From an uncultured delta proteobacterium (GTDB lineage: Bacteria > Desulfobacterota > Desulfovibrionia > Desulfovibrionales > Desulfovibrionaceae), in NCBI GenBank assembly GCA_903843965.1, contig CAIMRY010000019.1, positions 124,001-188,000 on the forward strand: 64,000 nucleotides of DNA, written 5' to 3'. A model generated the notes under the pieces. The model had not been told where the DNA came from, searched no databases, and saw only the letters and a list, made by a program, of their open reading frames with translations. This document shows positions 5,043-57,115 of the stretch, piece by piece. How positions within the stretch are numbered: position 1 is the first letter of the stretch; each line of letters starts with the position of its first letter. A program made the translations under genes and the position numbers.

Positions 5043-6167
5043 TCATTGCCCCCTGTGGCGTCCCAGGTGGGGGGCGAGGGCTGCGGCGAACAGGGCGCTG
5101 AACTTCCGCACCCCCCTAGAATTCATGTGGTTGTAGTCAAAATAGTCCGCATCATCGAGCTGGTCCAGGTCCACGCGCAGGTACACGAACCCGCGCGCCT
5201 CCACCTCCCGGCGCACCGGGCCGTCCATGAACCGCCGCTCCTTAAGCAGGTCCGCCCGCGTCGGGTACCTGTAGGGCGCTTCCTCCAGCACATTGACCAC
5301 GACATGGATCCGGTGCTCGCGCAGCAGGTCGAGCATGGCCAGGAACAACGACCAGTAGGCCGCGTCCGGCTGGAAGACTGCGGGGTGGGGAGCGCTTTTC
5401 GTGCCGAGCTGCTTGGCGCGGAAATGCGCCGGGTCAAGCTCCTCCAGCAAATAGCCGCCCCCGGCCATGAACTGGGACACCGCCACGGGCCTGCCCTCCG
5501 CAAACTGCACCTCGACACGCATGACGCCGGGCCTGCGGGAGAATTCCCGTTCGATGCCCGAAACATCCGGCGGGCCCAAGGAATCAGGCGGAACAGGCGG
5601 TCCGCCGCCCCTGGCCCAAAGCGTGCGCGCGGCAAGATCCTTCGCCCGCTCCAGCAGGGCCCCGCGCCGGGAATACAGATAGGTCAGCGGATTGAGGGCG
5701 ACAAGATTCTCCTCCATAACGGACAAGGGGATGCCCAGGGAGAGGTAGCGCGGCACGTTCCGCAGGCCGATGGGGTAGGCGTCGCGGATCTGCGCCGCCA
5801 GGAAGTTGAAGCTGCCGAGGGAGCAGACCACTGTGGCGTTTTTGGGAATCCGCTCCACAATGTCCTGAACGTGGGCGAACTGCGTGGGCAGCCAGTGGGC
5901 CCAGTGCGACAGGTTGAAGGACCGAGCGCCGAGCAGCGGGTCGAGCAGCTCCGGCTGCATGGTGCAGAACGTCCGGCTGTCTCCCAGGAACACAAGATCG
6001 TACTCCCCGGCGTGGGACAGGTAGAAGGCCGTCTTGCCCGGGAGGTTGCTGATGGGGCTTGGGGCGGAGACGACGCGCTTGTTTTTCGCATAAAGCAGGC
6101 AGCTGACCAGGGCCAGGGTGATACAGAAGACAAGCGCGTAGCTGATGATTCTCCTGGGAAGCGGCAT
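5043..6167 (-). CDS. Membrane-anchored SGNH-hydrolase-like O-acetyltransferase partner
   Basis: The chosen start gives 374 residues with one N-terminal membrane anchor at about residues 7-27. It is followed by the SGNH block I motif FLGDSRTF, with the presumed catalytic Ser at residue 64. A block V-like motif (DYNHMNSRG) sits near the C terminus. The layout resembles AlgJ/AlgX proteins, which place acetyl groups on an exported polysaccharide. I use ATG 6167, with GGAG 12 bases upstream, because it puts the anchor at the very N terminus. The frame extends to 6284, but that extension looks non-coding. The MBOAT gene follows after 3 bp, which supports a shared operon and an acetylation role. Sequence similarity to named members cannot be tested here. 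Confidence 0.75.
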   Translation of the reverse strand: MPLPRRIISYALVFCITLALVSCLLYAKNKRVVSAPSPISNLPGKTAFYLSHAGEYDLVFLGDSRTFCTMQPELLDPLLGARSFNLSHWAHWLPTQFAHVQDIVERIPKNATVVCSLGSFNFLAAQIRDAYPIGLRNVPRYLSLGIPLSVMEENLVALNPLTYLYSRRGALLERAKDLAARTLWARGGGPPVPPDSLGPPDVSGIEREFSRRPGVMRVEVQFAEGRPVAVSQFMAGGGYLLEELDPAHFRAKQLGTKSAPHPAVFQPDAAYWSLFLAMLDLLREHRIHVVVNVLEEAPYRYPTRADLLKERRFMDGPVRREVEARGFVYLRVDLDQLDDADYFDYNHMNSRGVRKFSALFAAALAPHLGRHRGQ

Positions 6168-6688
6168 CTGCTTTGGAGTCTCCAAGAAGTTGAAGGCTGA
6201 CGGATAACCCGCTCCCCCTCTAATTGCTGTTCCACGGCGCGTCAACCAGGGCCGGGTGCCTGTCGCCAAACCTTCTGGGTCCATGCCTGCTCACTGGCGG
6301 GGCATGCGTGCCTGGCTCACCGCAGCAATCGTGGCGGCCCTGCGGCCCCGGCGCGTCACGCACTGGAAGCGTTGGAGCTCGACCGGCATGGCTCTGTGCA
6401 GGCGAGACTCCCGTGCCCAACCGGGCCAGAATCCACAGCCGGGCGGTGGGCCGAATCTGTTCAGCGCAACGTTCGCAAGCTTGAACTGCCCTGAGAAGAG
6501 TCTGGCCAGCCATCGCATCGTCCTTCTTGACGCGAAGTAAGAACCTCATTACGAGTTTCTTGCCATTGAGATTGAAGGCGAACCGCTCCACGGTCAACAA
6601 TTTAATCCGTCGACACCCAAAGGCAGACCATGCACCTCATGCGAAACCACTTCGCTCAATCGATCACAACGTCACACACGCCCGCTAA
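6168..6688. other. 521-bp divergent intergenic region
   Basis: This region separates a minus-strand SGNH gene from a plus-strand epimerase gene, so promoters for both should lie here. The right third, from about 6530, is visibly more AT-rich than the rest. Short open frames exist on both strands but none has a convincing start or composition. I see no clear promoter pair, terminator or repeat. Confidence 0.5.
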
Positions 6689-7660
6689 ATGACCTCCAGA
6701 AAGGTTTGCCTCGTCACAGGATGCGCCGGCTTCATCGGTGGACATCTTTCTCTGCGGCTGCTCAAGCTCGGATACACGGTCATCGGCATTGACAATTTTT
6801 CCTCGGGGACTCGCGGATCCCTCGAAAAGCTCACTGCCATACCCAGCTTCCATCTTGTTGAATCAGACTTCACCTCACCAGGATTGTTTGAGCACTTGGA
6901 CCGGATCTTTGGTCCGTTCAGCGCCGTATTCCACCTTGCCGCCATCATCAGCATCCCCTACTCCATGGTACATACGGCGGAGACCATGCTCGTGAACCAC
7001 CAGGGAACCACGGCGTTCCATGACGAGTGCCGCGAAGCTGGCGTTCCTGCCTTCGTCTTTGCCGGTTCCGCTGCGGAATACGGGGACTGCACCCGGCTTC
7101 CGCTACGCGAGGACTATGCCGACGAGAGCGTAAGCCACCTGAGCCCCTATGGCCGCTCCAAGTGGCTGGCCTCGCGGCACATCGAGGGCGCAGGCTACGG
7201 CTGCGTGCTCAGATTCTTCAACATCTACGGACCGCAGCAACCATCGGAGAGCCCTTACAGCGGCGTCATCAGCCTCTTCGCCAACAACGCCCTGAAAGGC
7301 GAACCGCTGACGATCCACGGCTCCGGCAACCAGGCGCGGGACTTCCTTTACGTTGATGACGCAGTCGACGCCTACCTTGTCGCCGCAGGCCTTGGTGGTG
7401 GACTGCCCCTGCACGGCGTTTACAATGTAGGGACAGGTGAGGCCAATTACATCTACGACGTTGCGAACATTGTCCTTGAACTCACGGGCGGCGGCGAGGT
7501 GTGTTATCTCCCGCCACGAGAAGGAGACATTTGCTGGTCTTTGGCAGACGTCAGCAAGCTTCACGATACAGGGCTGTTCGTCCCCAAGGTCTCCATCGCA
7601 GTGGGGTTGGCGCGCACCCTTTCCTGGCTTGCTCAACAGGACCGCGCAGAATTGAAGTAG
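6689..7660 (+). CDS. NAD-dependent epimerase/dehydratase (extended SDR)
   Basis: This 323-residue protein has the Rossmann motif TGCAGFIGGH near the N terminus, an acidic residue ending the second strand (GIDNFSSG), and the catalytic pair in SPYGRSKW (YxxxK). These are the hallmarks of extended SDRs such as UDP-glucose 4-epimerases and NDP-sugar 4,6-dehydratases. The middle contains FNIYGPQQP and RDFLYVDDAVDAY, both typical of nucleotide-sugar epimerases. It probably makes or interconverts an NDP-sugar for the glycosyltransferases around it. The exact reaction cannot be assigned. It stands alone on the plus strand between two long non-coding stretches, and its base composition is a little lower in GC than that of its neighbours. 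Confidence 0.88.
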   Translation: MTSRKVCLVTGCAGFIGGHLSLRLLKLGYTVIGIDNFSSGTRGSLEKLTAIPSFHLVESDFTSPGLFEHLDRIFGPFSAVFHLAAIISIPYSMVHTAETMLVNHQGTTAFHDECREAGVPAFVFAGSAAEYGDCTRLPLREDYADESVSHLSPYGRSKWLASRHIEGAGYGCVLRFFNIYGPQQPSESPYSGVISLFANNALKGEPLTIHGSGNQARDFLYVDDAVDAYLVAAGLGGGLPLHGVYNVGTGEANYIYDVANIVLELTGGGEVCYLPPREGDICWSLADVSKLHDTGLFVPKVSIAVGLARTLSWLAQQDRAELK

Positions 7661-8354
7661 ACGTCTACGCGGCGCGGCCCTCTGGCATCCGCAGCGTGCA
7701 TGGTCTGGGACCGCACGCGAGTCCCAACCCCTTGCCCTTCAAGGCGATGCCTCCCCCTGGGCAGACTTTTCCCAGTCAATATGGGGAGTCCGTGCGCCAC
7801 TCCTTCACGGTTCAATACTGCAGCAGCAACGGCCAGAGTAAAGGTTGACGTGTTGCTTGTCGGTGTGGGAGATATTCGCCGGAGAATTGAGGCCATTGCG
7901 TTGCGCTTTGAGGAGCCGGGTCCTGCTGGAGCAAGCTGGAATTGGCCCGGCAACCCCGGAATACATGCCGCTGTGTTCATTCTGGATTTTCAAAGCTGGC
8001 TGTCTGGCCAAGGCATGGCGGCCATCAATTCGGAAGGGAGCGGGGAGAGGCGCGGCGCCGTTGGCCGGTGGCAAGCCTTGCATGTGGGCAGGGCCAAACC
8101 ACCCCCGCGTTAGTTGCGGGCTGCGCGCCCACGAAACGGCGCACCCCTGTGTTGAAGCGATGCATCTGCCCGGCACATGTCTCTTGCTCTTTGGCCGCTG
8201 CGGGCCCAACCCTTGTTTGCCCGTCAAGCCGGTCGCTCAACGGATCGGCGCGCAGCAGCGCCCCTTGTGATGGGAGACTTGCACACAGCCGCCTGTGCGG
8301 CAAAGCATCTTTCGCCCGCGCTATTCAAGCAGCATGGACCCACTCGAGGGAAGC
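7661..8354. other. 694-bp region without a supportable gene
   Basis: Several overlapping open frames of about 110-140 codons occur on both strands, but none has a good ribosome binding site, recognisable motifs or a protein-like composition. I see no terminator, repeat or RNA gene. The first 350 bp are less GC-rich than the following genes, which could mark an old insertion or decayed gene. Confidence 0.45.
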
Positions 8355-9212
8355 ATGACACAAAGTCGAGAGAACAAATTCGCATTTGGACGCAATTGGC
8401 AGTCTTTTTTGAACGTGCTTGATGACGATCATATCACCGCAGCGCAGGACTCAATCAAGTCATTGCTCGGCGTGACCCGGCTTGACGGAAAACGCTTCCT
8501 CGACGTTGGCTGCGGTTCAGGCCTGTTGTCTTTGGCTGTCCGAAGATTGGGCGCGCGGGTGCACTCCTTCGACTACGACCAACAGTCCGTGGCCTGCACC
8601 AACACCCTGCGCCAGCGCTATTTTCCGGCCGACGCAGACTGGACTGTGGAGCAGGGCTCGGCCCTGGACCAGGGCTATCTGGCCGGGCTGGGCCAGGCGG
8701 ATGTGGTCTACTCCTGGGGCGTGCTCCACCACACCGGCGCGCTGTGGCAGGCAATCGAGAACGTGCTCCCCCTTGTGGCGCCTGGCGGCAGCCTGACCCT
8801 GGCCATCTACAATTTCCAGGGGGCCGCCACCAGGGTCTGGACTGCGGTGAAGCGGCTCTACGCCTCCTCGCTCAAACCCGCGCAGGTGCTCATCGCCGCC
8901 CTGGTCTGCTGCTATTTCGAGTGGTGGCACATGGTGGACCGGGTCATCCACCTGAAGAACCCCCTGCCCTGTGCGGACTGGAAGGCTTACAGGGCCCAGC
9001 GCGGCATGAGCCGCTGGCATGACTACGTGGACTGGGCCGGGGGCTATCCCTTCGAGACCTCCACCCCGGACGAGCTGTTCCGGTTCGTGCACTCCCGGGG
9101 CTTCGAGCTGGTGCGGATGAAGACCCTGCGGGGCGGCCTCGGCTGCAACGAGTTCACCTTTGTGAAAAAGCCCGCCGCGTCCGTACCCCACGCTACGGGC
9201 GCTCCGGCATAA
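8355..9212 (+). CDS. Class I SAM-dependent methyltransferase
   Basis: This 285-residue protein carries the SAM-binding motif I FLDVGCGSG at about residues 48-56, followed by an acidic strand end (SFDYD) and the post-motif AYSWGVLHHTG-like block (VVYSWGVLHH), as in UbiE/Methyltransf_11 proteins. ATG 8355 has GAGGG five bases upstream. An ATG at 8334 is in frame but lacks a comparable site. The C-terminal half includes a hydrophobic segment and the block WHDYVDWAGGYPFE, also common in glycan-cluster methyltransferases. It probably methylates a sugar or lipid intermediate of the local glycan. It lies 20 bp upstream of a broken asnB copy, so it heads the plus-strand run that continues to 17074. 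Confidence 0.85.
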   Translation: MTQSRENKFAFGRNWQSFLNVLDDDHITAAQDSIKSLLGVTRLDGKRFLDVGCGSGLLSLAVRRLGARVHSFDYDQQSVACTNTLRQRYFPADADWTVEQGSALDQGYLAGLGQADVVYSWGVLHHTGALWQAIENVLPLVAPGGSLTLAIYNFQGAATRVWTAVKRLYASSLKPAQVLIAALVCCYFEWWHMVDRVIHLKNPLPCADWKAYRAQRGMSRWHDYVDWAGGYPFETSTPDELFRFVHSRGFELVRMKTLRGGLGCNEFTFVKKPAASVPHATGAPA

Positions 9213-17096: not shown

Positions 17097-18236
17097 CTAC
17101 CCGGCGGGCTCCTGCCGCGTCAAACAGTGGATGGTGCCCAGGCCCCAGACCAGGTCCACGGCGTGGATGCCGATGACGGGCCTGTCGAACGCTTCCGCCA
17201 GGATGCCCAGCGCCAGCCGGTCGCTTACGTCGTTGAAGGTGGGCACGAGCACGGCGGCGTTGGTGATGAGGAAGTTGGCGTAGCTGGCGGGCAGGCGCTG
17301 GCCGTCGAAGTAGAGCGGCGCGGGCATGGGCAGGCGGATGACCTCGGGCCTGCTGCCGTCCTCCAGCCGGGCCGCCTCCAGCAGCTCGCGGTTCTCCTCC
17401 AGGATGGCGTGGTTCGGGTCGCCTGGGTCCGGCTCCTGGCAGAGCACCATCGTCGTGGCGTTCACGAACCGGCAGAAGTCGTCCACGTGGCCGTGGGTGT
17501 CGTCGCCCTTGATCCCGTTGGCCAGCCAGATGGCGTTGGTGATGCCGAGCGCTTCCGCGAACACGGCCTCGTAGTCGGCGTGGGTGAAGCCGGGGTTGCG
17601 CACCTGCACCAGCGGGTCCAGGCAGCATTCCTCGGTGGTGACAAGCGTGCCGCGCCCGTTGGTGTCCAGCGCGCCGCCCTCAAAGGTCACCAGGCGGCCC
17701 TGGCGCGTCACGGGCGTGAGGTCAAAGCCCATGAGCCCGGCGATGGTCCGGGGCACTGCCGCGTCAAGCGTGAAGTCCTGGTACTTGCTCCAGGCGTCGA
17801 AGCCGAAGCCGGAGATGACGATGCGGCCTTCGTTCTCGCCGTCCCGTTCATTCGCCCGCTCGCCCACGCGCTCGCCCACCCGTTCGCCCACGCGCTCGAC
17901 AAAGCAGGGCCCGCAGTCGCGCATCCAGCCACGGTCCGTGGGGATGACGAAGAAGTCCACGCGGCTAACGTCCACGTGGGCCTTGTTCAGCTGGGCCTCG
18001 GCGCGGTGCAGGGTTGCGGCGCTGCCCACGAGCACGCGCACGCGCTCGCTGTCCTCGCTGTTCGCGATCTTGCGGATGATCTCGGCAAAGGCCCAGGGCA
18101 TGGGCTGGAACTTGCCCGGCCAGTCGCGCGGGTTCTGCGGCCAGGTGATCCAGGTGGCGGCGTGGGGCTCCCACTCCGCAGGCAGGCGGAGGTTCCCAAG
18201 AACCGGCCCACGAACCGGGTTGCCGGGCGCGCCCAT
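17097..18236 (-). CDS. aguA: Agmatine deiminase
   Basis: This 379-residue protein hydrolyses agmatine to N-carbamoylputrescine and ammonia. Family hallmarks are visible: WPQNPRDWPGK near the N terminus, the substrate loop TDRGWMRDCGP, the catalytic HVDDFCRF block, and the active-site Cys at about residue 371 in GTIHCLTRQEP. An arginine/glutamate-rich insert built from 12-bp repeats (17838-17897) follows the substrate loop and is unusual for the family. The gene begins 8 bp after the speY-like gene and is the last of three in the operon. No N-carbamoylputrescine amidohydrolase (aguB) gene is present in the window, so the next step must be encoded elsewhere. Confidence 0.92.
   Translation of the reverse strand: MGAPGNPVRGPVLGNLRLPAEWEPHAATWITWPQNPRDWPGKFQPMPWAFAEIIRKIANSEDSERVRVLVGSAATLHRAEAQLNKAHVDVSRVDFFVIPTDRGWMRDCGPCFVERVGERVGERVGERANERDGENEGRIVISGFGFDAWSKYQDFTLDAAVPRTIAGLMGFDLTPVTRQGRLVTFEGGALDTNGRGTLVTTEECCLDPLVQVRNPGFTHADYEAVFAEALGITNAIWLANGIKGDDTHGHVDDFCRFVNATTMVLCQEPDPGDPNHAILEENRELLEAARLEDGSRPEVIRLPMPAPLYFDGQRLPASYANFLITNAAVLVPTFNDVSDRLALGILAEAFDRPVIGIHAVDLVWGLGTIHCLTRQEPAG
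17838..17897 (-). repeat. 12-bp tandem repeat, 5 units, inside aguA
   Basis: Five degenerate 12-bp units run through this stretch. Two of them (17862-17873 and 17886-17897) are identical (gcccacgcgctc on the plus strand). They encode repeats of roughly E-R-V-G in the protein, keep the frame, and lie between the TDRGWMRDCGP loop and the next conserved strand. Confidence 0.9.
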
Positions 18237-18244
18237 GGCCCGCC

Positions 18245-19360
18245 CTACTTCTTTTCCTTTGAGGGGGCCTGTGCGGCGGCCTTGGCCTTCTTGGCCAGGC
18301 GGTCCTGCAGGCCCTTGATGAGGATGGGCCAGGCCAGGGTGGCGTCGGCGTGGACCTCGGCGAACTGGCCGCCCTCGGCCGGGGGCACGAACTTGCCCCA
18401 GGAGATGCCCTCCTGGTAGGTGCAGCCGGACAGGCCGCCCCAGTGCACGGGCTCCGGGCAGATGCGGATGGCGTAGGTGAAGCGGCGCTCGGGCAGGTCG
18501 CGCTCCAGGCGAGTGCCCATGACGTCGAAGAACGGGCCGATCTGCTGGGCCCAGTTGCGCGGCACCCCGCCGCCGATGGTGAAGATGGCCATTTTCTTGG
18601 CGCCGAACATCTTCTTGGAATAGCTGAACAGGTCCAGGAACGGGTTGAACTGGAAGGGCAGGGCCTCCGGGCCCTTCTCGCCCAGCAGGTGGCCGAAGTC
18701 CTTGGCCAGGATGGAGCAGGCCACGTCGAGGGCGAGTTCGGAGTCCGTGAAGGCCGGGATGAACACCGGAACGCCCTTGTTGTAGGCGCTCTTCAGGATG
18801 CCGGGGCCGTTGTACTTCTCGCTCAAGTGCTTGCCGATGGCCGCGCAGATGAGTTCGCTGGACAGATGCGTGACCTTGTCCACGTCCATCAGCTGGTGCA
18901 TGACCTCGCGCACCACAAGCTCGGCCTGGGCGAAGTTGGCCTCGGGCTCCAGGGTGTCGTACACGCGGTTGTACCCGGCGTCGAACAGGGCCTTGTCGTT
19001 CATCTTCGCCGGTTCGTACTTGAAGTGCTTGAGCCCGATGGACTCGATGAAGCCGTGGGCCATGAGCGCGCCGGTTGAGACGACCACGTCGAGCCAGCCC
19101 TCGTCGATCATCTTGATCAGGAGCTTGCTTTGCTTGGCCACGGTCATGGCGCCGGAAAAGGTGCCCACCACCACGCAGTCAGGGTCTGCGACCATGGCCT
19201 CCAGCACGTCCAGGGCCTCGCCCAGGCAGCGGCCCCCGAAGGCCGTGCGGCCCATGGCGGTCAACAGCTCGTCGAAGTCGTTGATGGCGTCCGGGTCGAG
19301 GGTGGAGAGCGGGGTCAGGTGATCCTTGGCGCCGTCGTGCAGGGTGCGCTTGGTGGACAT
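18245..19360 (-). CDS. speY: Deoxyhypusine synthase-like protein (probable homospermidine synthase)
   Basis: This 371-residue protein belongs to the deoxyhypusine synthase fold family. The NAD-binding segment VVVGTFSGAMT and the active-site block SWGK, with Lys at about residue 323 equivalent to the enzyme-imine lysine of deoxyhypusine synthases, are both present. Bacteria lack the eIF5A substrate. A characterised bacterial homologue (SpeY of Anabaena) makes homospermidine from putrescine, so a polyamine aminobutyltransferase is the best guess. Its position between pyruvoyl arginine decarboxylase and agmatine deiminase supports a polyamine role, and agmatine could even be an acceptor. ATG 19360 has a modest AAGGAT site. 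A strong hairpin lies in the 168-bp gap upstream. Confidence 0.8.
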   Translation of the reverse strand: MSTKRTLHDGAKDHLTPLSTLDPDAINDFDELLTAMGRTAFGGRCLGEALDVLEAMVADPDCVVVGTFSGAMTVAKQSKLLIKMIDEGWLDVVVSTGALMAHGFIESIGLKHFKYEPAKMNDKALFDAGYNRVYDTLEPEANFAQAELVVREVMHQLMDVDKVTHLSSELICAAIGKHLSEKYNGPGILKSAYNKGVPVFIPAFTDSELALDVACSILAKDFGHLLGEKGPEALPFQFNPFLDLFSYSKKMFGAKKMAIFTIGGGVPRNWAQQIGPFFDVMGTRLERDLPERRFTYAIRICPEPVHWGGLSGCTYQEGISWGKFVPPAEGGQFAEVHADATLAWPILIKGLQDRLAKKAKAAAQAPSKEKK

Positions 19361-19459
19361 GGGCGTATCCTTGTGCTGTGGGGCCTTGCCGGGCCCTTGT
19401 CTGGGTCCTTGGTGCGGTTGTGCAGCCCCTTGCGCGGGCCTTGCGTCTAGGTCCTGCCC

Positions 19460-19500
19460 GGGGGGGGGGCCCCCGCCGCCGCGTGCGCAGGCGGGGGCCC
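19460..19500 (-). promoter_or_regulatory. G10 run and 11-bp perfect hairpin between pdaD and speY-like gene
   Basis: Ten G residues (19460-19469) run into a perfect 11-bp stem (19467-19477 with 19490-19500) around a 12-nt loop. It lies between two genes of one operon. There is no T-run on the transcribed strand, so it is not a classical terminator. It may act as an attenuator, mRNA stabiliser or processing element. Confidence 0.5.
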
Positions 19501-19528
19501 TGGGCCGGGGTCCGGGAAACGGGCCGTC

Positions 19529-20083
19529 TTAGAAAATGAAGACGACTGCGGACACGGTGGTGGTCCACATGTTGGTCGTGCCCATGGCGGACACGGCGGC
19601 GGAGAAGGAGTCGATGATCTTGCCGCTCATGAGGTAGACCTCGCGGCGCTCGTCATAGCCGATCTCGGGGTCGAAATCGACGCCGAGGGTGGTGGCCAGC
19701 ATGGTCGAGGCCAGGTCCTCGGCAAAGTCGCCCAGTTCCTTCTCCTCCTCGCCGAAGCTGTGGTGCTCGGAGATGTAGCCGTAGTGCTGCTTGTCGGCCG
19801 GGATGGCCATGCCCACGGCGCTGCCCACCAGGCGGCCCTTCTCGTTGGTCTGATTTCTCGCCATGACGCAGAAGGTGATCTGGCCGGGGTGCAGGCTCTT
19901 CACGCCCTCTTCAAGGCTCAAGAGCTCACAGTTGGGCGGGTAGATGCTGGAGACGTACACAAGATTCTGTTTTTCGATGCCGGCGGCTCGGAGCGCCAGC
20001 TCGAAGGACTGCAGCTTGTTTTTGTGGACGCCCACGCCTTTGGTGAAGAAGGCATGGGTGGGGACCATGGGATGATTGGCCAT
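19529..20083 (-). CDS. pdaD: Pyruvoyl-dependent arginine decarboxylase
   Basis: This 184-residue protein decarboxylates arginine to agmatine. Members of this family are made as a proenzyme that cleaves itself between two serines to create the pyruvoyl cofactor. The corresponding motif is visible as YVSSIYPP, with Ser45-Ser46 the expected cleavage point. ATG 20083 is preceded by a near-perfect AGGAGG at good spacing, which rules out the longer frame that begins at 20137. The gene heads a polyamine operon with the speY-like gene and aguA, so agmatine has two possible fates here. A small hairpin lies in its leader at 20111-20126. The length is normal for the family. Confidence 0.92.
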
Positions 20084-20110
20084 ATGATGACCCTCCTGGG
20101 CTGGTGATAG

Positions 20111-20126
20111 CGTCGGTGCCCCGACG
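20111..20126 (-). promoter_or_regulatory. Small leader hairpin upstream of pdaD
   Basis: A perfect 6-bp stem with a 4-nt loop (cgtcgg / ccgacg) lies 27 bp upstream of the pdaD start codon, just before the ribosome binding site. It could influence translation or simply be chance in GC-rich DNA. Confidence 0.35.
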
Positions 20127-20182
20127 AGAGACGGCATATAATTTTTTGGAAGGGCTGGCTACTAATAAAATGGAGCGTTCCT

Positions 20183-20268: not shown

Positions 20269-21402
20269 CTACGCCACTTCCTCCGGCCCGGCCAAAAGCT
20301 TCAGCTGGCCGCAGGCCGCGGCGATGTCCTGGCCCATGCTGCGGCGGATGAAGGTGGTGATGCGCCTGCTGCGCAGGTATTCCTCAAAGGCCAGCACGCC
20401 TGCCGGGTCCGGCGCGCGAAAGGGCGGGTTCGGGGTCGCCTCGGGCGGAGGCGGATTGTAGCCGATGAGGTTGACCTTGCAGCGGCGCTGGCCCAAAAGC
20501 TTCACCAGCTGCTTGGCGTGCTGGATGCTGTCGTTGACCCCGCCGAGCATGATGTATTCGTAGGTCACGCGCTCGCGCGACTTCAGCGGGTAGGCGTCCA
20601 GCGCGGCCAAAAGCTCGTCCAGGGGCACCCGCGCGGCCTTGGGCATAAGCTTCGCGCGCAGCTCCTGGGTGGGCGCGTGCAGGCTGATGGCGGGCACGGC
20701 CAGGCCGAAGTCGCCCAATACCTTGAGCGCCGCCGGAATGCCCACGCTGGAGACCGTGGCCCGGCGCGAGGCGATGGAGATGCCCTCGGCGCTGCCGAGC
20801 GTCTCCAGGCTGCGCAGCAGCTCGGGCAGGTTCATGAGCGGTTCGCCCATGCCCATGAACACGAGGTTGCGCACGATTGGCAGCCCGGCCCCGGCCAGGT
20901 GCGCCCGGCCGACCATGACCTGGCCCAAAATCTCGCCCATGGTCATGTTGCGCGTGAATCCCAGCTCGCCCGTGGAGCAGAACGAACAGGCCATGGCGCA
21001 GCCCACCTGGGTGCTCAGGCACTGGGTATAATGCTGGCCCATGGGGATGAGCACGGTCTCGATGCGCTCGCCGTCGGCCAGGCGCAGCAAAAGCTTGATG
21101 GTGCCGTCGCGGCTGGTGCGCGCCACGTCCACAGCGGGCCAGTTGATGGCCGCGCGCCGCGCCAGCAGGCCCTTCAAGTCCTTGGACAGGTTGGTCATGG
21201 CCGCAAAGTCGCGCACGCCCCGGCGCCACAGCCAGTGCCACAACTGGTCCGTGCGGAAGCGCGGCTGGCGCAGCTCCTGCGTCACAAAGGCTTCCAGCTC
21301 GGAGCGCGTCAGGTTCAAGAGGTCCACTTTGGCCTCGGGCTTGGCTTCGGGCATGGACCCGGAGCCTGGGGCCTGGATATTGGTGGCGGCGGCGTCTGTC
21401 AT
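20269..21402 (-). CDS. rlmN: Dual-specificity 23S rRNA/tRNA adenine C2-methyltransferase RlmN
   Basis: This 377-residue radical SAM enzyme methylates C2 of A2503 in 23S rRNA and A37 in some tRNAs. The cluster motif CAMACSFC gives Cys135, Cys139 and Cys142, followed by TGELGFTRN. The mechanistic C-terminal cysteine, which forms the methyl-enzyme intermediate, is seen in AAACGQLK at about residue 364. FMGMGEPLMN is the usual SAM-binding GGE-equivalent block. A short alanine- and proline-containing leader precedes the conserved core, so the true start may lie slightly downstream, for example at the ATG around residue 17. It is a single housekeeping gene next to the AT-rich cassette. Confidence 0.95.
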   Translation of the reverse strand: MTDAAATNIQAPGSGSMPEAKPEAKVDLLNLTRSELEAFVTQELRQPRFRTDQLWHWLWRRGVRDFAAMTNLSKDLKGLLARRAAINWPAVDVARTSRDGTIKLLLRLADGERIETVLIPMGQHYTQCLSTQVGCAMACSFCSTGELGFTRNMTMGEILGQVMVGRAHLAGAGLPIVRNLVFMGMGEPLMNLPELLRSLETLGSAEGISIASRRATVSSVGIPAALKVLGDFGLAVPAISLHAPTQELRAKLMPKAARVPLDELLAALDAYPLKSRERVTYEYIMLGGVNDSIQHAKQLVKLLGQRRCKVNLIGYNPPPPEATPNPPFRAPDPAGVLAFEEYLRSRRITTFIRRSMGQDIAAACGQLKLLAGPEEVA

Positions 21403-21547
21403 CGTTCAAGCATGTAGCAAGAGGGGAGGGCGTTAGACAAGTGGTTGCATCGGGTTGAGGGGACCACTCCACACGCTACGTCGAGGAACCTGAGAAAACC
21501 ACTCACTACGTCAAATATCAGCAAAACAGTTACAGTTATGTTGGCCA

Positions 21548-22477
21548 CTATTTCGCAGATCGGAAATCGACAGAGTACTGCGCGCTGTAGTCATCCCTCT
21601 CCCAACCCCAGTTCCTCATTGACTTCAAGTATGTTAACCAATTTCTCCGAGTCATCATCTTCGTCAAGTCGTAGTCCTTGATATGCTCCACCTGCCGGTA
21701 CACATGATTAGAACTCGTATGCAACATTCCATCTGGGAACAGGAACACATCAGGGGCTTGTAGCCTACTTTCCTTCGAACTATGTCTAATACATTTCATT
21801 TTATTCGTAAACAACTCATACAATTCAATCATCAACGAGTCATATTGTGCCGCCTTTAAATCAAAGCTGTTTTCAGGGGTGTAGCTCTGTCTTCCATTTC
21901 GATAATACTCCTCCACGCGCCAGATAATATTCGGATTGATGGATATAAGTTTCCAACCAAGATCCTCAATACTAGAATAGTTCTTCTTCGTGACCACCGT
22001 TGAAACTTCAAGGCGTATATTCGTCTTCTTGATCTCGTTTAATATCATTATCTGGGTAGATAGCAACTCCATCGCTATTTCCGGTTGAGAAATGCCAAAC
22101 TCGATCATAATTTCTTTAACCGTAAGGCCTCTAACTGACAGGAGGATGGTGTCTAAGTAGTTATCCAGCTCCTGTAATTTCTCTACCGTTAAATTTGCAC
22201 CAGTTGTATTCAAGCACACATGGACATGATTTGAATGTAGATATTTAACAAACTGCAACAATTCATCATTTTTGTCCCAAAAAAACATTGGGTCTCCACC
22301 AGTCAAGGTAACACGCGCGCTACCATTGTAGCAACAAATCGTCTCCACATTTGCCTTCCATTGCTCAATGTCAGTGAGCATGAAGTCCTTCCCTGACAAG
22401 CCAGAATGACAAACTGGGCAATTACGGTAGCACTTCCACGAAAGAGCATAAGCGATGCTAATCGGACTGTTTTTCAT
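21548..22477 (-). CDS. Radical SAM protein of unknown function
   Basis: This 309-residue protein has the radical SAM cluster motif KCYRNCPVC (Cys16, Cys20, Cys23) almost at the N terminus and the SAM-binding LTGGDP motif at about residues 58-63. I do not recognise the subfamily, and there is no obvious second iron-sulfur cluster domain. ATG 22477 has a GAGGATAGAG ribosome binding site and overlaps the end of the upstream gene by 20 bp, so the two proteins are translated together. The region is strikingly AT-rich compared with the housekeeping genes on both sides, which points to horizontal transfer. The C-terminal 80 residues are rich in aromatic and charged residues with no known motif. Substrate and role are unknown. 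Confidence 0.8.
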   Translation of the reverse strand: MKNSPISIAYALSWKCYRNCPVCHSGLSGKDFMLTDIEQWKANVETICCYNGSARVTLTGGDPMFFWDKNDELLQFVKYLHSNHVHVCLNTTGANLTVEKLQELDNYLDTILLSVRGLTVKEIMIEFGISQPEIAMELLSTQIMILNEIKKTNIRLEVSTVVTKKNYSSIEDLGWKLISINPNIIWRVEEYYRNGRQSYTPENSFDLKAAQYDSLMIELYELFTNKMKCIRHSSKESRLQAPDVFLFPDGMLHTSSNHVYRQVEHIKDYDLTKMMTRRNWLTYLKSMRNWGWERDDYSAQYSVDFRSAK

Positions 22478-23189
22478 CTCTATCCTCGATGCCTTTAGAC
22501 TTTTCCCAGAGCTCGTCAAAGTAATTTGAATAGTACTGCCCACCCCTTGAATTATGATCAAATTCATACGTAATAGTCTGTGAACCTGCTCTATCTATTA
22601 AATACGGCCCCACCTTTATGACGTCATCAACCCGGAAATACAGATCCTGCGGGACCCCAAAATATTCTTTAATTTTTACTTTATCCCTGATAAGCAGCGG
22701 TAGCGTTCTGTGCCATGAAATAAGGTCCTCGGTCTTAGTGTGGACTGCACCACCAATTGGTTTGTCTAAGTGGGGTATTAATAACCGAATCTCTAAACCA
22801 TCTTTAATCTTTTTGAGGAGCTTTGACTGAAGATTCTGTCTTAATGAAGTTATCCCGCCTTGCACAATCCCATCGATTTCTTGCGCCCCGTTCTCAATCA
22901 ACGAGTTCATCCTCTCGTTTAGTTGCGCTCTGTACTCATATATTGCCTTGAGTCCCCATTTAGATGATAGTTCTTCGCTACTGAAAATTGAGTGATAGTA
23001 GCGCAAGTTGATAAAGCTGACGATCGCTGCAGAACAGAGTGACGTCCCCACACCTAGAAGGATCTGTTCCATTGATGAAATTAGCAACCCAACCAGCGAC
23101 AAGACCAACCCCAGAAGAAACAAGGCGACACTTATTATTTCGACGTTGCGCATTTTTTGAATTACGACTGAACGCATCTGCCCCCCCAT
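22458..23189 (-). CDS. Membrane protein with unknown C-terminal domain
   Basis: This 243-residue protein has two predicted membrane helices near the N terminus (about residues 17-38 and 42-65). A helical linker with predicted coiled-coil character and a soluble domain of about 150 residues follow. That domain ends with YLIDRAGSQTITYEF and YYSNYFDELWEKSK. By memory, this tail resembles tails seen on phospholipase-D-like or sensor domains of other two-helix proteins, but no catalytic HKD motif is present. Possible starts are ATG 23189, ATG 23177 and ATG 23153. A run of seven C on the plus strand lies directly inside the first codons. It is the first gene of the AT-rich cassette and overlaps the radical SAM gene. 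Confidence 0.65.
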   Translation of the reverse strand: MGGQMRSVVIQKMRNVEIISVALFLLGLVLSLVGLLISSMEQILLGVGTSLCSAAIVSFINLRYYHSIFSSEELSSKWGLKAIYEYRAQLNERMNSLIENGAQEIDGIVQGGITSLRQNLQSKLLKKIKDGLEIRLLIPHLDKPIGGAVHTKTEDLISWHRTLPLLIRDKVKIKEYFGVPQDLYFRVDDVIKVGPYLIDRAGSQTITYEFDHNSRGGQYYSNYFDELWEKSKGIEDRDEKQSD

Positions 23190-23275
23190 TATATGTGGAA
23201 ACGCATAAAGCCATCGATTCCGGTGCGCACTGAGGTCGCATGCCCGAAGAATGAGATAACACCGTAAAATTTATG

Positions 23276-23303
23276 TTGCTTGTATTTAATCTTAACATAC
23301 TAT
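23276..23303 (+). promoter_or_regulatory. Possible sigma-70-type promoter for yggS
   Basis: TTGCTT and TACTAT are separated by 16 bp, 85 bp upstream of the yggS start, at the AT-rich edge of the cassette. Each box matches consensus at four of six positions. AT-rich DNA gives such matches easily, so this is weak evidence. Confidence 0.25.
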
Positions 23304-23387
23304 GCCCCTGAATGAAACCCCCTAATCCGATGGCCTGCCCCTGGGCGGCCCTTCCCTGCCGCAGCGTTTTGGCGTAGACCTGCGGCC

Positions 23388-24134
23388 ATGGCAGCCACCA
23401 ACACCCTTCCCAAGCCCACCGCCACCCGCGCCCGCGAACTGGCCGCCCGCTTGGACGCCGTCAAGGGCCGCATGGCCCGCGCCTGCCAGCGCGCCGGGCG
23501 CGACCCGGACAGCGTGCGCCTGGTGGCGGTGAGCAAGTTCCACCCGGCCAGCGACATCCTGGCCCTGGTCGAGGCCGGGCAGCGCGACTTTGCCGAGTCC
23601 TACGTGCAGGAGGCCCTGCCCAAGCAGGACCAGCTGGTGGGCCAGGACATCCTCTGGCATTTCGTGGGAGGTCTGCAGACCAAGAAGGCCAAGGCCATGG
23701 CCGGGCGCTTCGTGCTGGTGCACAGCCTGGACACGGAGAAGCTGGCCGTGGAGCTGGCCCGCCGCTCGGCGGATGCGGGCATGCTCCAGAGCGTGCTCAT
23801 CGAGGTCAACCTGGGCGAGGAGCAGAAGGCCGGGGTGGACGAGGCCGATCTGGCCGACCTGGCCGGGCAGGTGCTGGCCCTGCGCGACGACGGCGTGGGC
23901 CTGGACCTGCAGGGGCTGATGTGCCTGCCGCCGGTGTTCGACGCGCCCGAAGAGGCCCGGCCGTATTTCGCCCACCTGCGCGAACTGCGCGACGAACTTT
24001 CCGCCAGCCTGGACGCTCCCCTGCCGCACCTGTCCATGGGCATGACCGGCGACTTCGAGGCCGCCATCGAGGAAGGCGCGACCATCATCCGGGTGGGCAC
24101 CTCGATCTTCGGCCCGCGCCCGCGCAAGGCCTAG
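23388..24134 (+). CDS. yggS: YggS/PLPBP family pyridoxal phosphate homeostasis protein
   Basis: This 248-residue protein is a fold-type III alanine-racemase-like PLP carrier with no known catalytic activity of its own. It helps control cellular pyridoxal phosphate and amino-acid balance. The PLP lysine is seen in LVAVSKFHP at about residue 50. Later blocks [28 protein letters not shown] and [13 protein letters not shown] match the family throughout, and the phosphate-binding end [11 protein letters not shown] is intact (VGTSIFG). Its usual homologues have IGxLQxxK at the GGLQTKK position, so this substitution is a small oddity. It is the first of three plus-strand genes with the DUF4390 and NtrY-like genes. 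Confidence 0.95.
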
Positions 24135-54169: not shown

Positions 54170-54856
54170 CTAGGCCAGGGGGTCGGCCAGGCCGGGCTTG
54201 AGGTAGAAGGCGTGGGCCTGCAGGGGCGTGCCGTCGTCCGGGGAGCAGAGCTGGCTCTTGAACCCGCGAAACTCCAGCCCCGCCTCCAGCAGCAGGCCGT
54301 GCACCACGCCGAAGTCGGCCTGGCCCTCGTAAAGCAGGCAGAAGCTGACCTCCACCTGCACCAGGCAGGCCCTGGCCAGCACCCTGCGCCCGCCGCGCAG
54401 CACCTTGTCCTCGGCCCCCTGCACGTCGAGCTTGACAAAGACTCCGTCCTCCAGGTCCGCGTCGGCCAGCTCGTCGTCCAGGCGGCGGCACATGACCGTG
54501 ATGTCTTCATTTCCTGCGGACTTCGGGGCCAGCTCCTTGTGGATGCGCTCCATGCGCAGCAGGGAAGACGAGGGCGCATACGAGCTGCGGTGGAAGACCA
54601 CAGGCCCCTCCACGTCCGAGAGCGAGACGTTGCGCGCGATGATGCGCGGGTCCGCCGCCGCCTTCTGGGCCAGCAGCGCAAAGGCGTCGGGCAGGGGCTC
54701 GAAGCCGTACAGTTTGGCCAGGGGGAACAGGCTGAGCAGAAAGGCTGCGTAGTCGCCGTTGTTGGCCCCCACGTCCACGATGCTGCGCACCGGGATTTTC
54801 TTCAGCCATTCCAGGCTGGTGCAACACGGGGCGGAGATGAAGGTCTTGGTCATCAT
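54170..54856 (-). CDS. FkbM family methyltransferase
   Basis: This 228-residue protein has SIVDVGANNGDY near the N terminus, the SAM-binding signature of FkbM enzymes, and later LKLDVQGAED, matching the typical KxDVEG block (variant Gln). They O-methylate sugars in natural products and surface glycans. ATG 54856 has AGGGA six bases upstream; an adjacent ATG at 54853 is equally in frame. A frame extends to 54898 but starts with an unlikely segment. It sits between the AT-rich methyltransferase gene and NeuB, with gaps of 224 and 165 bp, so a separate promoter is possible. Confidence 0.85.
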   Translation of the reverse strand: MMTKTFISAPCCTSLEWLKKIPVRSIVDVGANNGDYAAFLLSLFPLAKLYGFEPLPDAFALLAQKAAADPRIIARNVSLSDVEGPVVFHRSSYAPSSSLLRMERIHKELAPKSAGNEDITVMCRRLDDELADADLEDGVFVKLDVQGAEDKVLRGGRRVLARACLVQVEVSFCLLYEGQADFGVVHGLLLEAGLEFRGFKSQLCSPDDGTPLQAHAFYLKPGLADPLA

Positions 54857-55080
54857 ATGCTGTCCCTGGTAGATGGTTCTGCCGGGCGGAAGCCGCACCC
54901 CGGCACCCTGGCGTTACAGTGTCAGGCGGACGCTCGCTGTGCGCATGCAGTTGCTGAGCAAAGGCTTCAACAGCGCTGCGCCTTGACCATACGCGGAGGC
55001 AGTCTGCGAACAGGTTTATGCACGATGAACACCCCTTCGCATAGGCCCTCGCACCCGCATGAATACATCAATGCGCTCTC

Positions 55081-56298
55081 TTAACACTTATCCAAGTCGG
55101 GACGGCAGGGTTTCAACCTCATGTCCAGGCCTGGGTTTCTATAGACGCGCAATAGTTCCTTCGAAAACGACTCATTAACATCTAGTATTGGGACAGCGCG
55201 GGCAACAAGGGCCACTCGGCAGACATCCTTGCCACACCCAGGTTGCATCAGCACATGCATTGTCTCCAGAACCGGCTCGAAAAGTGACGCCCTAAGCATT
55301 TCAAAAAGACATTTGATTGTCGGAAGCCACCAGTTTGTCAGAGGCGAATAATACCGCCCTTCATATCCTTTTCCTGGTGTCAGTATTTGATTAAAAGCCA
55401 TATGCGAATTTTCAGTATCATAGATTGCACCGGTCTCAACGATCATGCAACCATTGGCATTCACGACGCTTCTAGCTTGTGACAGGCAAAGCATCGGGTC
55501 ACGTAAGTGATATAACAAGCCAAAATTCTGGACTATATCAAAGCCGCCAAACTCTTCGCCAGGACATTCTTCCTTCAAAATATCAAGCCTTTCAACAATA
55601 TTGTACGGCGAAACGTTAAAGTATGGCAGCACTTCACTGCCAAGCATTTCTTTCACGAGAAGAAAATTTTTGTAGTAACTGAGATAGGTGTCGGCGCCGA
55701 CCACCTGCTGCGCGCCCAGGGCTTCAGCCTCAAAGGCGAACAGACCGTTGAACGTTGCGATATCAAGAACTTTTTTTCCTGTGTAGTCAACATGCAAGCG
55801 TGTATTTCGGATATTATTCCAGAGATCCTGCCACTGTTTTCCAGGAGTTTGAAACCCGTTGGTAAAACGGATCGTATGGTACCAAGCAAGCTCGTTGATC
55901 CGTTTGGCCAGACGGTCGCTATACTCTTTGGCCTCAAGTGGTGGAATGAACTCCGACAAAGGCACCAAGCCTTTCTTGGTGAAGTACAATTTTATATCGA
56001 AAGGAGCGTCCGATTGGTTCGCAGACTCCACGGCTTGGAGTATCGACTCATGCCAGAATTTGTCACCGCACACCATGATGACTTCACCACGCGCAGCCGC
56101 GCGTAGCGCATCAAGCAAGACTTCATCGCCCGGTTCGAGACGGTCTCCGAAACAATGCTCAGTGGCTCCTTCAAAACAGACACGCGAGGTGTTTTTTTTG
56201 AGGAGAGCAATTTTCTGATAGCTTGACCCATGCTCCTGCAATGCACGATTACATACCGCATCTGGCCCTACGAGTATAAACAGTGCTGTTTGTTTCAT
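55081..56298 (-). CDS. SAM-dependent methyltransferase, AT-rich
   Basis: This 405-residue protein has an N-terminal region of about 150 residues of unknown fold and a C-terminal Rossmann domain. Its SAM motif is VLDIATFNGLFAFEA, with DTYLSYYKN after it and HLRDPMLCLSQ at the usual post-motif site. WYHTIRFTNGFQTPG before it resembles the entry to CmoB-like methyltransferases. The gene is visibly richer in A and T than its neighbours, which suggests recent acquisition. ATG 56298 gives a plausible start. It is in the cluster but may carry out a different modification from the FkbM types. Confidence 0.8.
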   Translation of the reverse strand: MKQTALFILVGPDAVCNRALQEHGSSYQKIALLKKNTSRVCFEGATEHCFGDRLEPGDEVLLDALRAAARGEVIMVCGDKFWHESILQAVESANQSDAPFDIKLYFTKKGLVPLSEFIPPLEAKEYSDRLAKRINELAWYHTIRFTNGFQTPGKQWQDLWNNIRNTRLHVDYTGKKVLDIATFNGLFAFEAEALGAQQVVGADTYLSYYKNFLLVKEMLGSEVLPYFNVSPYNIVERLDILKEECPGEEFGGFDIVQNFGLLYHLRDPMLCLSQARSVVNANGCMIVETGAIYDTENSHMAFNQILTPGKGYEGRYYSPLTNWWLPTIKCLFEMLRASLFEPVLETMHVLMQPGCGKDVCRVALVARAVPILDVNESFSKELLRVYRNPGLDMRLKPCRPDLDKC

Positions 56299-56377
56299 AA
56301 GTCATATCCTTACGCTAATTGTTGCAGTGTGTTTCCCTGTTGTTGCGGATAGACCGCCCAGGATCTGCGCATTCTTA

Positions 56378-57115
56378 TCAGCACGCTGCAGGCGGCCTTT
56401 GCGGCGGGTTGGCCCAGCGGAGCATGTACGCCTGCCTGTCCTTGGCCATGCGGTCCGAGGTCGCGCTGAGCTGTCTGAGTTCGTTGTCGGTCAGAAAATG
56501 GTCCACCTTGGCCCCCTGCACCGCGATGGTGCGGTAGCCCGCCTCCAGAAGCCGCAGGCAGTAGTCCCCGTCAGCCTTGTACAGTTCGTACAGGTCTTCC
56601 TCAAATCCGCCCAGCCTCCGGAATACATCCGCCCTGTAGAACCCGTGGTTGACGAACAGGGTATCATGGATGGTCCTGCGGGCGCTATACGTCTCCTCCA
56701 CCGGAACGTTGCGGAACGGCAGAGCCGCGGCGGCCACGTCCGCCGGGGCGTCAACCAGGGCCTTGTATCCCGCCATGAGGGCCCCAGGGTGCAGGAAGCA
56801 GTCGTCGCTCACCATGCAGATATACGGCGCGTGGGCCGAATTGAACGCGATATTCATGAAGTAGCCCCAGGAGAACCTTCTCTTCCGGCCTTTCCCCTCA
56901 ACCGCGAAGTTGTGCTGCACTATGGTGATGACGTCCTGCTGCGCCACCAGCCACTGCACTGAGCCGTCGGTTGAGCCTCCGTCGATGACGATGATCTCAT
57001 ACGGAACATCAACACCGTTGGACCGTATGCTCTCGATGCATTCCGTGAGCATGGCGAATCTGTTGTATGATCCCAGTACGATACTGATTCGTGGCTTGGC
57101 ATTCTGGCCTGTCAT
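56378..57115 (-). CDS. Glycosyltransferase family 2 protein
   Basis: This 245-residue GT-A enzyme begins with SIVLGSYNR and has VIDGGSTDGS and CMVSDDCFLHPG, whose DD motif is the metal and donor site. The later block GGFEEDLYELYKADGDYCL (short form GGFEEDL) is typical for the family. It is likely to add a sugar in the cluster's glycan. The gaps to its neighbours are 79 and 67 bp, so it may be transcribed with both. No membrane helix is visible. Confidence 0.88.
   Translation of the reverse strand: MTGQNAKPRISIVLGSYNRFAMLTECIESIRSNGVDVPYEIIVIDGGSTDGSVQWLVAQQDVITIVQHNFAVEGKGRKRRFSWGYFMNIAFNSAHAPYICMVSDDCFLHPGALMAGYKALVDAPADVAAAALPFRNVPVEETYSARRTIHDTLFVNHGFYRADVFRRLGGFEEDLYELYKADGDYCLRLLEAGYRTIAVQGAKVDHFLTDNELRQLSATSDRMAKDRQAYMLRWANPPQRPPAAC

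Follow-up and report, generated by a model that had tools for sequence, protein, structure and literature searches.

Here we report an AT-rich pair of genes in a 64,000-nucleotide stretch of DNA from an uncultured delta proteobacterium of the Desulfovibrionaceae (assembly GCA_903843965.1, contig CAIMRY010000019.1, positions 124,001 to 188,000; the window, in whose numbering the pair is described). Both genes are read from the minus strand, with rlmN (20269-21402) on one side and yggS (23388-24134) on the other, and they encode a membrane protein with two transmembrane helices (2TM) followed by a probable phospholipase D (PLD) fold domain without the catalytic motif, here called pseudo-PLD, and a radical SAM enzyme. 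Horizontal acquisition of the pair is supported, and relatives of the membrane protein exchange the N-terminal partner of the pseudo-PLD domain, which occurs behind 2TM, DUF4062 and NDT/TIR-like parts. The coupling of a radical SAM gene to the pseudo-PLD protein is real at the window locus and is observed in a few other genomes, too few to establish a system. We tentatively propose, as something possible rather than probable, that the pair is an acquired conflict or defence cassette in which a membrane sensor-effector cooperates with the radical SAM enzyme.

An earlier note on this DNA, made from its letters alone, had described two genes overlapping by 20 bp between rlmN and yggS, and both the reading frames and the flanks confirm this, the latter matching NCBIfam models for RlmN at 352 bits (cut-off 290) and for the YggS family at 180.6 bits (cut-off 106). 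GC content is 0.419 in the radical SAM gene and 0.432 in the membrane protein gene, against 0.663 for the whole window, and at third codon positions it is 0.52 and 0.48, respectively, against 0.92 in rlmN and 0.94 in yggS; a 500-bp profile from 15 to 30 kb drops to 0.39-0.45 at the gene pair only. The claim that the genes are more AT-rich than all their surroundings holds in so far as they form the lowest-GC stretch of the window, but there is a second AT-rich dip (GC ~0.47 in 1-kb windows) near 55 kb. Genes at that second stretch (54500-56500) encode an FkbM methyltransferase (54170-54898) and a Methyltransf_9 protein (55081-56298).

Among the other genomes sampled from the phylum, 394 in number, none matched the membrane protein. 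Outside its own genome the radical SAM enzyme was compared with 148 relatives, of which 12 showed weak similarity (27 bits at best), confined to the radical SAM core, and the rest no match. The gene rlmN was found in each of the 14 further members of the genus, and in six of them the matched parts of rlmN and yggS lie 201-369 bp apart (GC 0.67-0.71), the distance being 890 and 1145 bp in two more. Genome G002 holds ~2.6 kb (GC 0.54) at this site with two sugar-nucleotide genes, one for a GDP-mannose dehydratase (513 bits) and one of the epimerase family, whereas G006 holds ~3.7 kb of short open reading frames (ORFs), of which the two tested had no Pfam match; in G001 and G014 yggS was not found within the 9-11 kb fetched upstream of rlmN, and in G007 and G012 the contig ends close to rlmN. 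The site between rlmN and yggS is variable and takes differing cargo. Since homologues are nearly absent from relatives and the site there is empty or otherwise filled, the transfer that the earlier note had suggested is supported by more than composition.

The membrane protein was modelled with AlphaFold from nine sequences (mean pLDDT 63.9, pTM 0.44) as two helices, a helical linker and an alpha/beta domain, in that order, with hydrophobic peaks at residues 18-36 and 42-60. VIA-align matched the soluble part to many PLD-type chains at Z 4.8-6.3, a range (below 8) that can mean merely a common arrangement; they include polyphosphate kinase (Z 6.3, 112 residues aligned, 3.6 Å), SauUSI (Z 6.3, 117 aligned, 3.8 Å), TrmB (3qph, Z 5.5, 101 aligned, 4.1 Å; 2f5t, Z 5.3, 93 aligned), BJ-TSA-9, NucT, FAM83B, PLD3/4, phosphatidylserine synthase, NgoAVII R and Zucchini, all of which we take to share the PLD fold. 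The top row and many others aligned helical bundles or histidine-kinase helices to the membrane helices. Foldseek gave no match at E 0.001 or better; its top five were TrmBL2 chains (E 0.005-0.05, TM-scores 0.22-0.24, root-mean-square deviation 14-18 Å), with TrmB at rank 8 and unrelated dihydrodipicolinate reductases further down. Because many PLD-type chains agree and the strand order is compatible, we take a PLD fold as probable. The catalytic HKD motif (HxKxxxxD) was absent from all 13 proteins scanned, the window protein among them. Six homologues gave sub-threshold matches to DUF5919 (PF19319; 12.2-21.5 bits, gathering cut-off 23.5), the window protein giving none up to E 10 and no match to DUF4062. 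The two helices of the earlier note therefore stand, on hydropathy and model, and the soluble domain that it had left without a type is now probably of PLD fold without HKD. The literature searched held no mention of DUF5919, and nothing was found there on a PLD-like domain with radical SAM and a sensor, or on TrmB with phospholipase D.

Relatives of the membrane protein were located at 21 loci besides the window (L053-L058, L059 (= L061), L060, L068, L069-L072, L074, L075 (= L077), L076 (= L078), L104-L107 and L113), second tandem copies in L069-L071 not being counted. L053-L060 and L068 are certain relatives (175 bits, or a tblastn E of 5e-17 or lower); L069-L071 (67-77 bits), L075 (52), L074 (46, tblastn) and L113 (42) score lower, and L076 (30), L104-L107 (31-38) and L072 (23) are weak. 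It is in front of the pseudo-PLD domain that these proteins differ. L053 and L054 have the 2TM architecture of the window protein; L057 and L058 place DUF4062 (104.3 and 106.4 bits) N-terminal to the homologous domain, as does L068 by reading only; and in L055 an NDT-like domain replaces the 2TM part (Pfam Nuc_deoxyrib_tr 28.7 bits, cut-off 28.8; PADLOC 'Effector TIR' 29.7 bits). Because different outputs are swapped onto one domain, the pseudo-PLD domain, having lost its catalytic HKD, would most likely be a sensing domain that binds a ligand or a protein, and binding rather than catalysis would fit both the missing HKD and the resemblance to the sugar-binding domain of TrmB (2f5t, by its title). 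Because DUF4062 fills the place of the two helices in L057, L058 and L068, with the output N-terminal and the sensor C-terminal, the membrane segment would be the output, and once triggered it would probably damage or depolarise the membrane.

The surroundings of several relatives point in the same direction. On viral contigs (L059 (= L061), 5809-6537; L060, 5806-6543) and at the phage-type locus L056 (7974-8705) stand-alone 2TM pseudo-PLD genes lie, by reading, between portal/head and scaffold-type phage genes, a position that would fit exclusion or defence cargo. The region 2846-11223 of L055 is likely a defence island: it comprises an MmeI-type restriction-modification gene, an HNH protein, the NDT-pseudo-PLD fusion, a DUF5131 protein that matches the candidate defence models PDC-M41B (309 bits) and PDC-M30B (305 bits), an IPP-transferase-like protein (28.9 bits, cut-off 23.6) and a second NDT-like protein (23.4 bits, under the cut-off of 28.8), with an integrase-like gene downstream by reading; PADLOC scores a type IIG restriction-modification gene at this locus with 1006 bits. 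At L078, where the pair has a GC content of 0.36 and the fetched locus as a whole 0.51, genes for a GmrSD_N protein (PADLOC NsnA 231 bits) and a HEPN protein come after it. At L054 an operon-like run (5921-8786) of a weak ThyX-like gene (23.9 bits, cut-off 24.8), a weak dNMP-kinase-like gene (22.8 bits, cut-off 27.1), a divergent radical SAM-like gene and the 2TM pseudo-PLD gene suggests a modified deoxynucleotide. Nucleotide-type enzymes recur near the relatives, several of them below cut-off, as in L054 and L055, and L074 adds Ham1 (52.5 bits, cut-off 22.5).

At the clostridial loci L069 (L115), L070 (L116) and L071 (L117) two tandem membrane pseudo-PLD-like genes stand, by reading, behind a conserved sulfotransferase-like gene, and these loci may represent a branch of the family with a housekeeping role on the chromosome. 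A known housekeeping role of homologues, which the earlier note had said would speak against its interpretation, was not found for the close relatives; the distant L069-L071 resemble ordinary chromosome.

These loci came from searches of differing reach. A pattern scan of genome contigs, which used a single ten-residue motif loosened with made-up rows and so misses relatives without the motif, yielded six relatives among 109 pattern matches; among 42 pattern matches in viral contigs were three loci, of which two hold the same gene, and a plasmid search yielded one relative. Profile searches, covering genome samples, matched 6 of 6 (with one new locus, L068), 5 of 391, 3 of 244, 5 of 257 and 2 of 285 genomes, source genomes being counted. 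As a single query the window membrane protein had no match in plasmids (E 1e-3), viral contigs or phages (E 0.1), and the radical SAM enzyme none in plasmids (E 1e-5) or viral contigs, its plasmid matches at E up to 10 being 12 records of other radical SAM proteins or unrelated ones. The L053 membrane protein had no match in phages, the L055 protein none in viral contigs, and the L059 and L078 membrane proteins none as queries; pattern searches with made-up motif alignments had no match in viral contigs. The L054 membrane protein recovered only Cupriavidus again, and the L055 protein matched 88 plasmid records, none covering 80% of the protein, of which the best 40 rows hit the N-terminal NDT-like part only.

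An adjacent same-strand radical SAM-type gene was present at three of the 21 loci, namely L053 (11-bp gap, 60.6 bits to PF04055), L078 (12-bp gap, 40.8 bits to PF04055, beside a membrane protein that is a weak family member) and L054 (17-bp overlap, CxxxCxxC, 16.1 bits against a cut-off of 29.5). The count is four of 21 with the adjacent DUF5131 protein of L055 (267.6 bits; 84.9 bits, cut-off 355, to the NCBIfam model 'radical SAM mobile pair protein A') and two of 21 (L053 and L078) by the strict Pfam cut-off. Excluded as partners were DUF512-type radical SAM genes in L069 and L070, which lie one gene further in what reads as ordinary chromosome, and a radical SAM-like gene ~2 kb away on the opposite strand in L077. 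Genomes G000, G537, G538, G539 and G1042 contain 47, 12, 60, 51 and 51 radical SAM matches, or 0.9-1.9% of genes if 900 genes/Mb are assumed. The literature on radical SAM with DUF5131, surveyed in outline, held nothing on this pair.

The radical SAM enzyme of the window has, as the earlier note had said, no recognised subfamily: it passes the Pfam Radical_SAM model at 38.7 bits (cut-off 29.5) and no NCBIfam cut-off among the 25 best models listed. Its start was placed at the ATG at 22477, with GAGG at 22484-22487, 7-10 bases upstream within the membrane protein gene; the ORF list puts the start earlier, at 22567 (339-aa frame). Cysteines occur at residues 16, 20, 23, 48, 49, 88 and 229 only, a single one past residue 88, and a SPASM or auxiliary-cluster cysteine motif is absent. 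The usual motif at the position of its GGDP is GGEP. The best NCBIfam model is viperin, at 50.2 bits against a cut-off of 180, the alignment spanning model positions 3-269 of 281 and residues 37-308 in the 339-aa frame, and the best PADLOC model is pVip (58.1 bits, model positions 2-245 of 257). The CxxxCxxC motif expected of viperins is present, but it is not specific to them. By phmmer the closest PDB entries are 9dfn/9dfu (31 bits, E 1.4e-6; next entry E 0.19), titled 'Radical SAM core domain-containing protein', which from the aligned sequence read as viperin-type; they are not among the phmmer matches listed for the enzymes of L053 (319-aa part) and L078. In this alignment KLNTVV becomes EVSTVV and RWKVFQ becomes IWRVEE in the window enzyme; we assume that the triphosphate is bound by K and N in KLNTVV and by R and K in RWKVFQ. 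An AlphaFold model from two sequences (mean pLDDT 39.4) was excluded from the fold search.

The viperin label suggested by PADLOC and NCBIfam was dropped, the pVip model being unspecific and the NCBIfam score 50 of 180 bits, and we retain only the description 'nearest to viperin'. Used at E 0.001 with no score cut-off, the PADLOC pVip model PDLC02904 hits every one of 247 genomes and all 14 controls, and its listed matches, up to ten per genome, reach 75-102 bits and exceed the 56.4 bits of the window enzyme; they can hardly all be viperins. Users should be aware that pVip calls made with PDLC02904 require a score threshold. According to a published study (PMC10732462), the products of viperins from bacteria and archaea are ddhCTP, ddhGTP and ddhUTP. 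Literature surveyed in outline, on viperin with phospholipase D and transmembrane proteins and on radical SAM in nucleotide-centric and 2TM systems, held nothing on this pair.

Several observations weigh against reading the two genes as one defence system. Seventeen of the 21 other loci lack an immediate radical SAM-type partner, three DUF4062 fusions and three phage-type loci among them. Partners of another kind occur: the 2TM protein on a Cupriavidus plasmid (L074) lies behind a D12 DNA methylase; a distant membrane pseudo-PLD-like protein (L104, 1165-2651; = L108, 3885-5371) overlaps by 4 bp a stand-alone Cas2-family gene (Pfam CRISPR_Cas2 59.9 bits), no cas1 being recognised by eye in the 12 kb listed; and L113 adjoins an NTP transferase and DUF218. 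The partnered enzymes belong to differing subfamilies and not to one family (nearest PDB matches SkfB, with MoaA below, for L053 and PqqE for L078; best models PA0069/Rv2578c at 20-21 bits for L054), and a further instance of the pair in its exact form, a homologous membrane protein with a closely homologous radical SAM enzyme, was not found. At an assumed radical SAM neighbour rate of 3%, the probability of at least two partners among 21 loci is 0.13, of at least three 0.024 and of at least four 0.003, in a post hoc test whose neighbour class was picked after the window had been seen; the pairing statistics are suggestive. No defence genes adjoin the pair, which is flanked by rlmN and yggS (the remaining window was not scanned with PADLOC), and the fold evidence is modest, with pTM, Foldseek and VIA-align scores as given above.

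For the conflict or defence cassette that we tentatively prefer, the enzyme encoded in the overlapping frame would most likely act on a small molecule, possibly a nucleotide, and its product would either be read by the sensor or be directly harmful to phage replication. A small-molecule substrate is favoured because the enzyme lacks auxiliary-cluster cysteines and the ORFs at the insert edges seem unlike precursor peptides; the phage-defence role of the pair is one that we infer. It is somewhat unlikely, though well worth keeping in view, that the membrane protein is instead a self-contained defence or exclusion protein, with a 2TM output and a pseudo-PLD sensor for a phage protein or metabolite, and the radical SAM gene independent, co-transcribed cargo. 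The DUF4062 fusions and phage-type copies without a neighbouring radical SAM gene would fit such cargo, as would the varying subfamilies of the partners and a Caballeronia plasmid on which an enzyme distantly homologous to that of L078 (23.8% identity) has an integrase, a TetR regulator and a hypothetical protein for neighbours and no annotated transmembrane partner; the 20-bp overlap in the window and the tight same-strand coupling in L053, L054 and L078 argue against it. That the enzyme is a distant prokaryotic viperin making a chain-terminating ddh-nucleotide, with the membrane protein as accessory, appears improbable: its best models are viperin and pVip over nearly their full length and its top PDB match, 9dfn/9dfu, is not listed for the L053 and L078 enzymes, but the low score, the unspecific pVip model and the altered stretches EVSTVV and IWRVEE speak against it.

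Radical SAM maturases beside membrane proteins are common, and a RiPP-like pair, in which the enzyme would modify a peptide or the membrane protein itself, has in its favour the extra C-terminal cysteines of the L053 partner, the best PDB match of that partner to the maturase SkfB, and short ORFs at the insert edges (49 aa, 21399-21548, and 106 aa, 22978-23298, both on the minus strand). We judged these ORFs not credible as precursors, as the 49-aa one enters the rlmN start and the 106-aa one overlaps the membrane protein gene out of frame, and with a window enzyme free of auxiliary-cluster motifs and flanks of rlmN and yggS we regard this explanation as quite improbable. Very improbable, to our minds, is a metabolic or passenger cassette without a defence role at an insertion-tolerant site; the GDP-mannose dehydratase and epimerase-family gene at the same site in G002 would agree with it, but the repeated occurrence of the pseudo-PLD domain in the vicinity of defence genes, and together with DUF4062 and TIR-like outputs, speaks against it. 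A wider form of the conflict reading, which we think unlikely, is a family of defence signalling systems: radical SAM enzymes, drawn from several subfamilies, would make small signals, probably nucleotide-derived, and a catalytically dead PLD-fold sensor reading them would fire interchangeable outputs (2TM in the window; TIR-like or NDT-like in relatives).

The interpretations of the earlier note fared unevenly under this evidence. Its single system gains from the radical SAM-type neighbours in L053, L054 and L078 (DUF5131 in L055), but loses from the loci without such a partner, the differing subfamilies and the lack of a second exact pair. Pairing near defence genes elsewhere, which it had proposed to look for, is seen in a looser form at a few loci with radical SAM-type neighbours, L055 and L078 of these lying near defence genes, but most loci lack such a partner. 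The layout of membrane sensor or effector with small-molecule enzyme is strengthened by a domain common to DUF4062 and NDT/TIR-like proteins and by the defence genes near L055 and L078, but the part played by the enzyme is presumed. The view of the pair as an undescribed system has gained some support, mainly from the swapped outputs and the phage and defence contexts.

Table 1. Features of the gene pair and its surrounding insert, in window coordinates.
Feature	Position	Strand	Remarks
AT-rich insert between rlmN and yggS	~21480..23310	.	GC 0.425; edges not base-exact
2TM + pseudo-PLD (DUF5919-like) membrane protein	22458..23189	-	243 aa; alternative start at 23177
Transmembrane helix 1	23082..23147	-	residues 15-36; AlphaFold model (pLDDT ~80) and hydropathy peak
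Transmembrane helix 2	22986..23069	-	residues 41-68 in model; AlphaFold model and hydropathy peak
Soluble domain, probable phospholipase D fold, without HxKxxxxD	22500..22892	-	~residues 100-230; PLD-type structure matches, motif scan, alignments
Overlap of both reading frames	22458..22477	-	20 bp
Radical SAM enzyme	21548..22477	-	309 aa; Pfam PF04055 38.7 bits; CxxxCxxC
4Fe-4S motif CxxxCxxC (CYRNCPVC)	22409..22432	-	residues 16-23 (C16, C20, C23)
GGDP	22289..22300	-	residues 60-63; at position of GGEP

No flanking direct or inverted repeats stand out around the insert, and no Rfam family matches the locus, where promoter-like sites are fewer than the shuffled expectation and terminator-like sites close to expectation. 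Elsewhere in the window, a polyamine cluster at 17097-20137 brings a pyruvoyl-dependent arginine decarboxylase together with an agmatine-deiminase-like protein (215 bits, below NCBIfam cut-offs) and a protein of the deoxyhypusine synthase family.

If the proposed reading is true, a new sensor domain, the pseudo-PLD, has been coupled by bacteria and phages alike to membrane and TIR-like outputs, and radical SAM chemistry is placed beside nucleotide signalling in bacterial conflict, where viperins are to our knowledge the sole link between radical SAM enzymes and defence. If the signalling family is true as well, it would add a new signal chemistry to the effector-swapping logic of CBASS and Thoeris. 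Small as it is, the two-gene cassette can be tested directly in a laboratory strain, and fusions of the domain to DUF4062 and NDT offer matched comparisons for identifying the trigger.

No report of the gene pair was found in the literature searched, which was largely surveyed in outline, and its nearest counterparts are known systems that each share a part of it. In Swarozyc, as a preprint describes it (PMC13174449), DUF4062 is a TIR-like NADase and a C-terminal auxiliary domain binds the phage portal. L057 and L058, and L068 by reading, likewise carry DUF4062 before a homologue of the C-terminal domain of the window protein, in the same output-then-sensor layout, whereas the window protein itself has a 2TM part in place of DUF4062, no NADase domain and a radical SAM partner; the auxiliary domain of KpSwz is HTH/winged and that of the window PLD-like, a distinction drawn from its description in that preprint. 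The resemblance to DUF5919 and to TrmB-type non-catalytic PLD-fold domains lies in the weak DUF5919 matches of the six homologues and in the fold match to the TrmB sugar-binding domain, but in the window protein the domain is membrane-anchored and without a DUF5919 match of its own. With pVip, its best-scoring named family, the window enzyme shares a single-domain form without SPASM and a nearly full-length alignment, whereas it falls far under the cut-off, has altered residues in the aligned stretches and is partnered by a transmembrane pseudo-PLD protein. Neither window protein matches a nucleotidyltransferase, SAVED-, STING- or SLOG-type family, and the gene beside the effector, a CD-NTase in CBASS, encodes a radical SAM enzyme here, between rlmN and yggS. 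CBASS and Thoeris-type systems fuse 2TM or TIR effectors to a sensor domain. The family of the window protein resembles them in that 2TM and TIR-like outputs can replace each other in front of a single sensor-like domain, with an enzyme gene adjoining, and differs from them in that the enzyme adjoining the window protein is a radical SAM enzyme.

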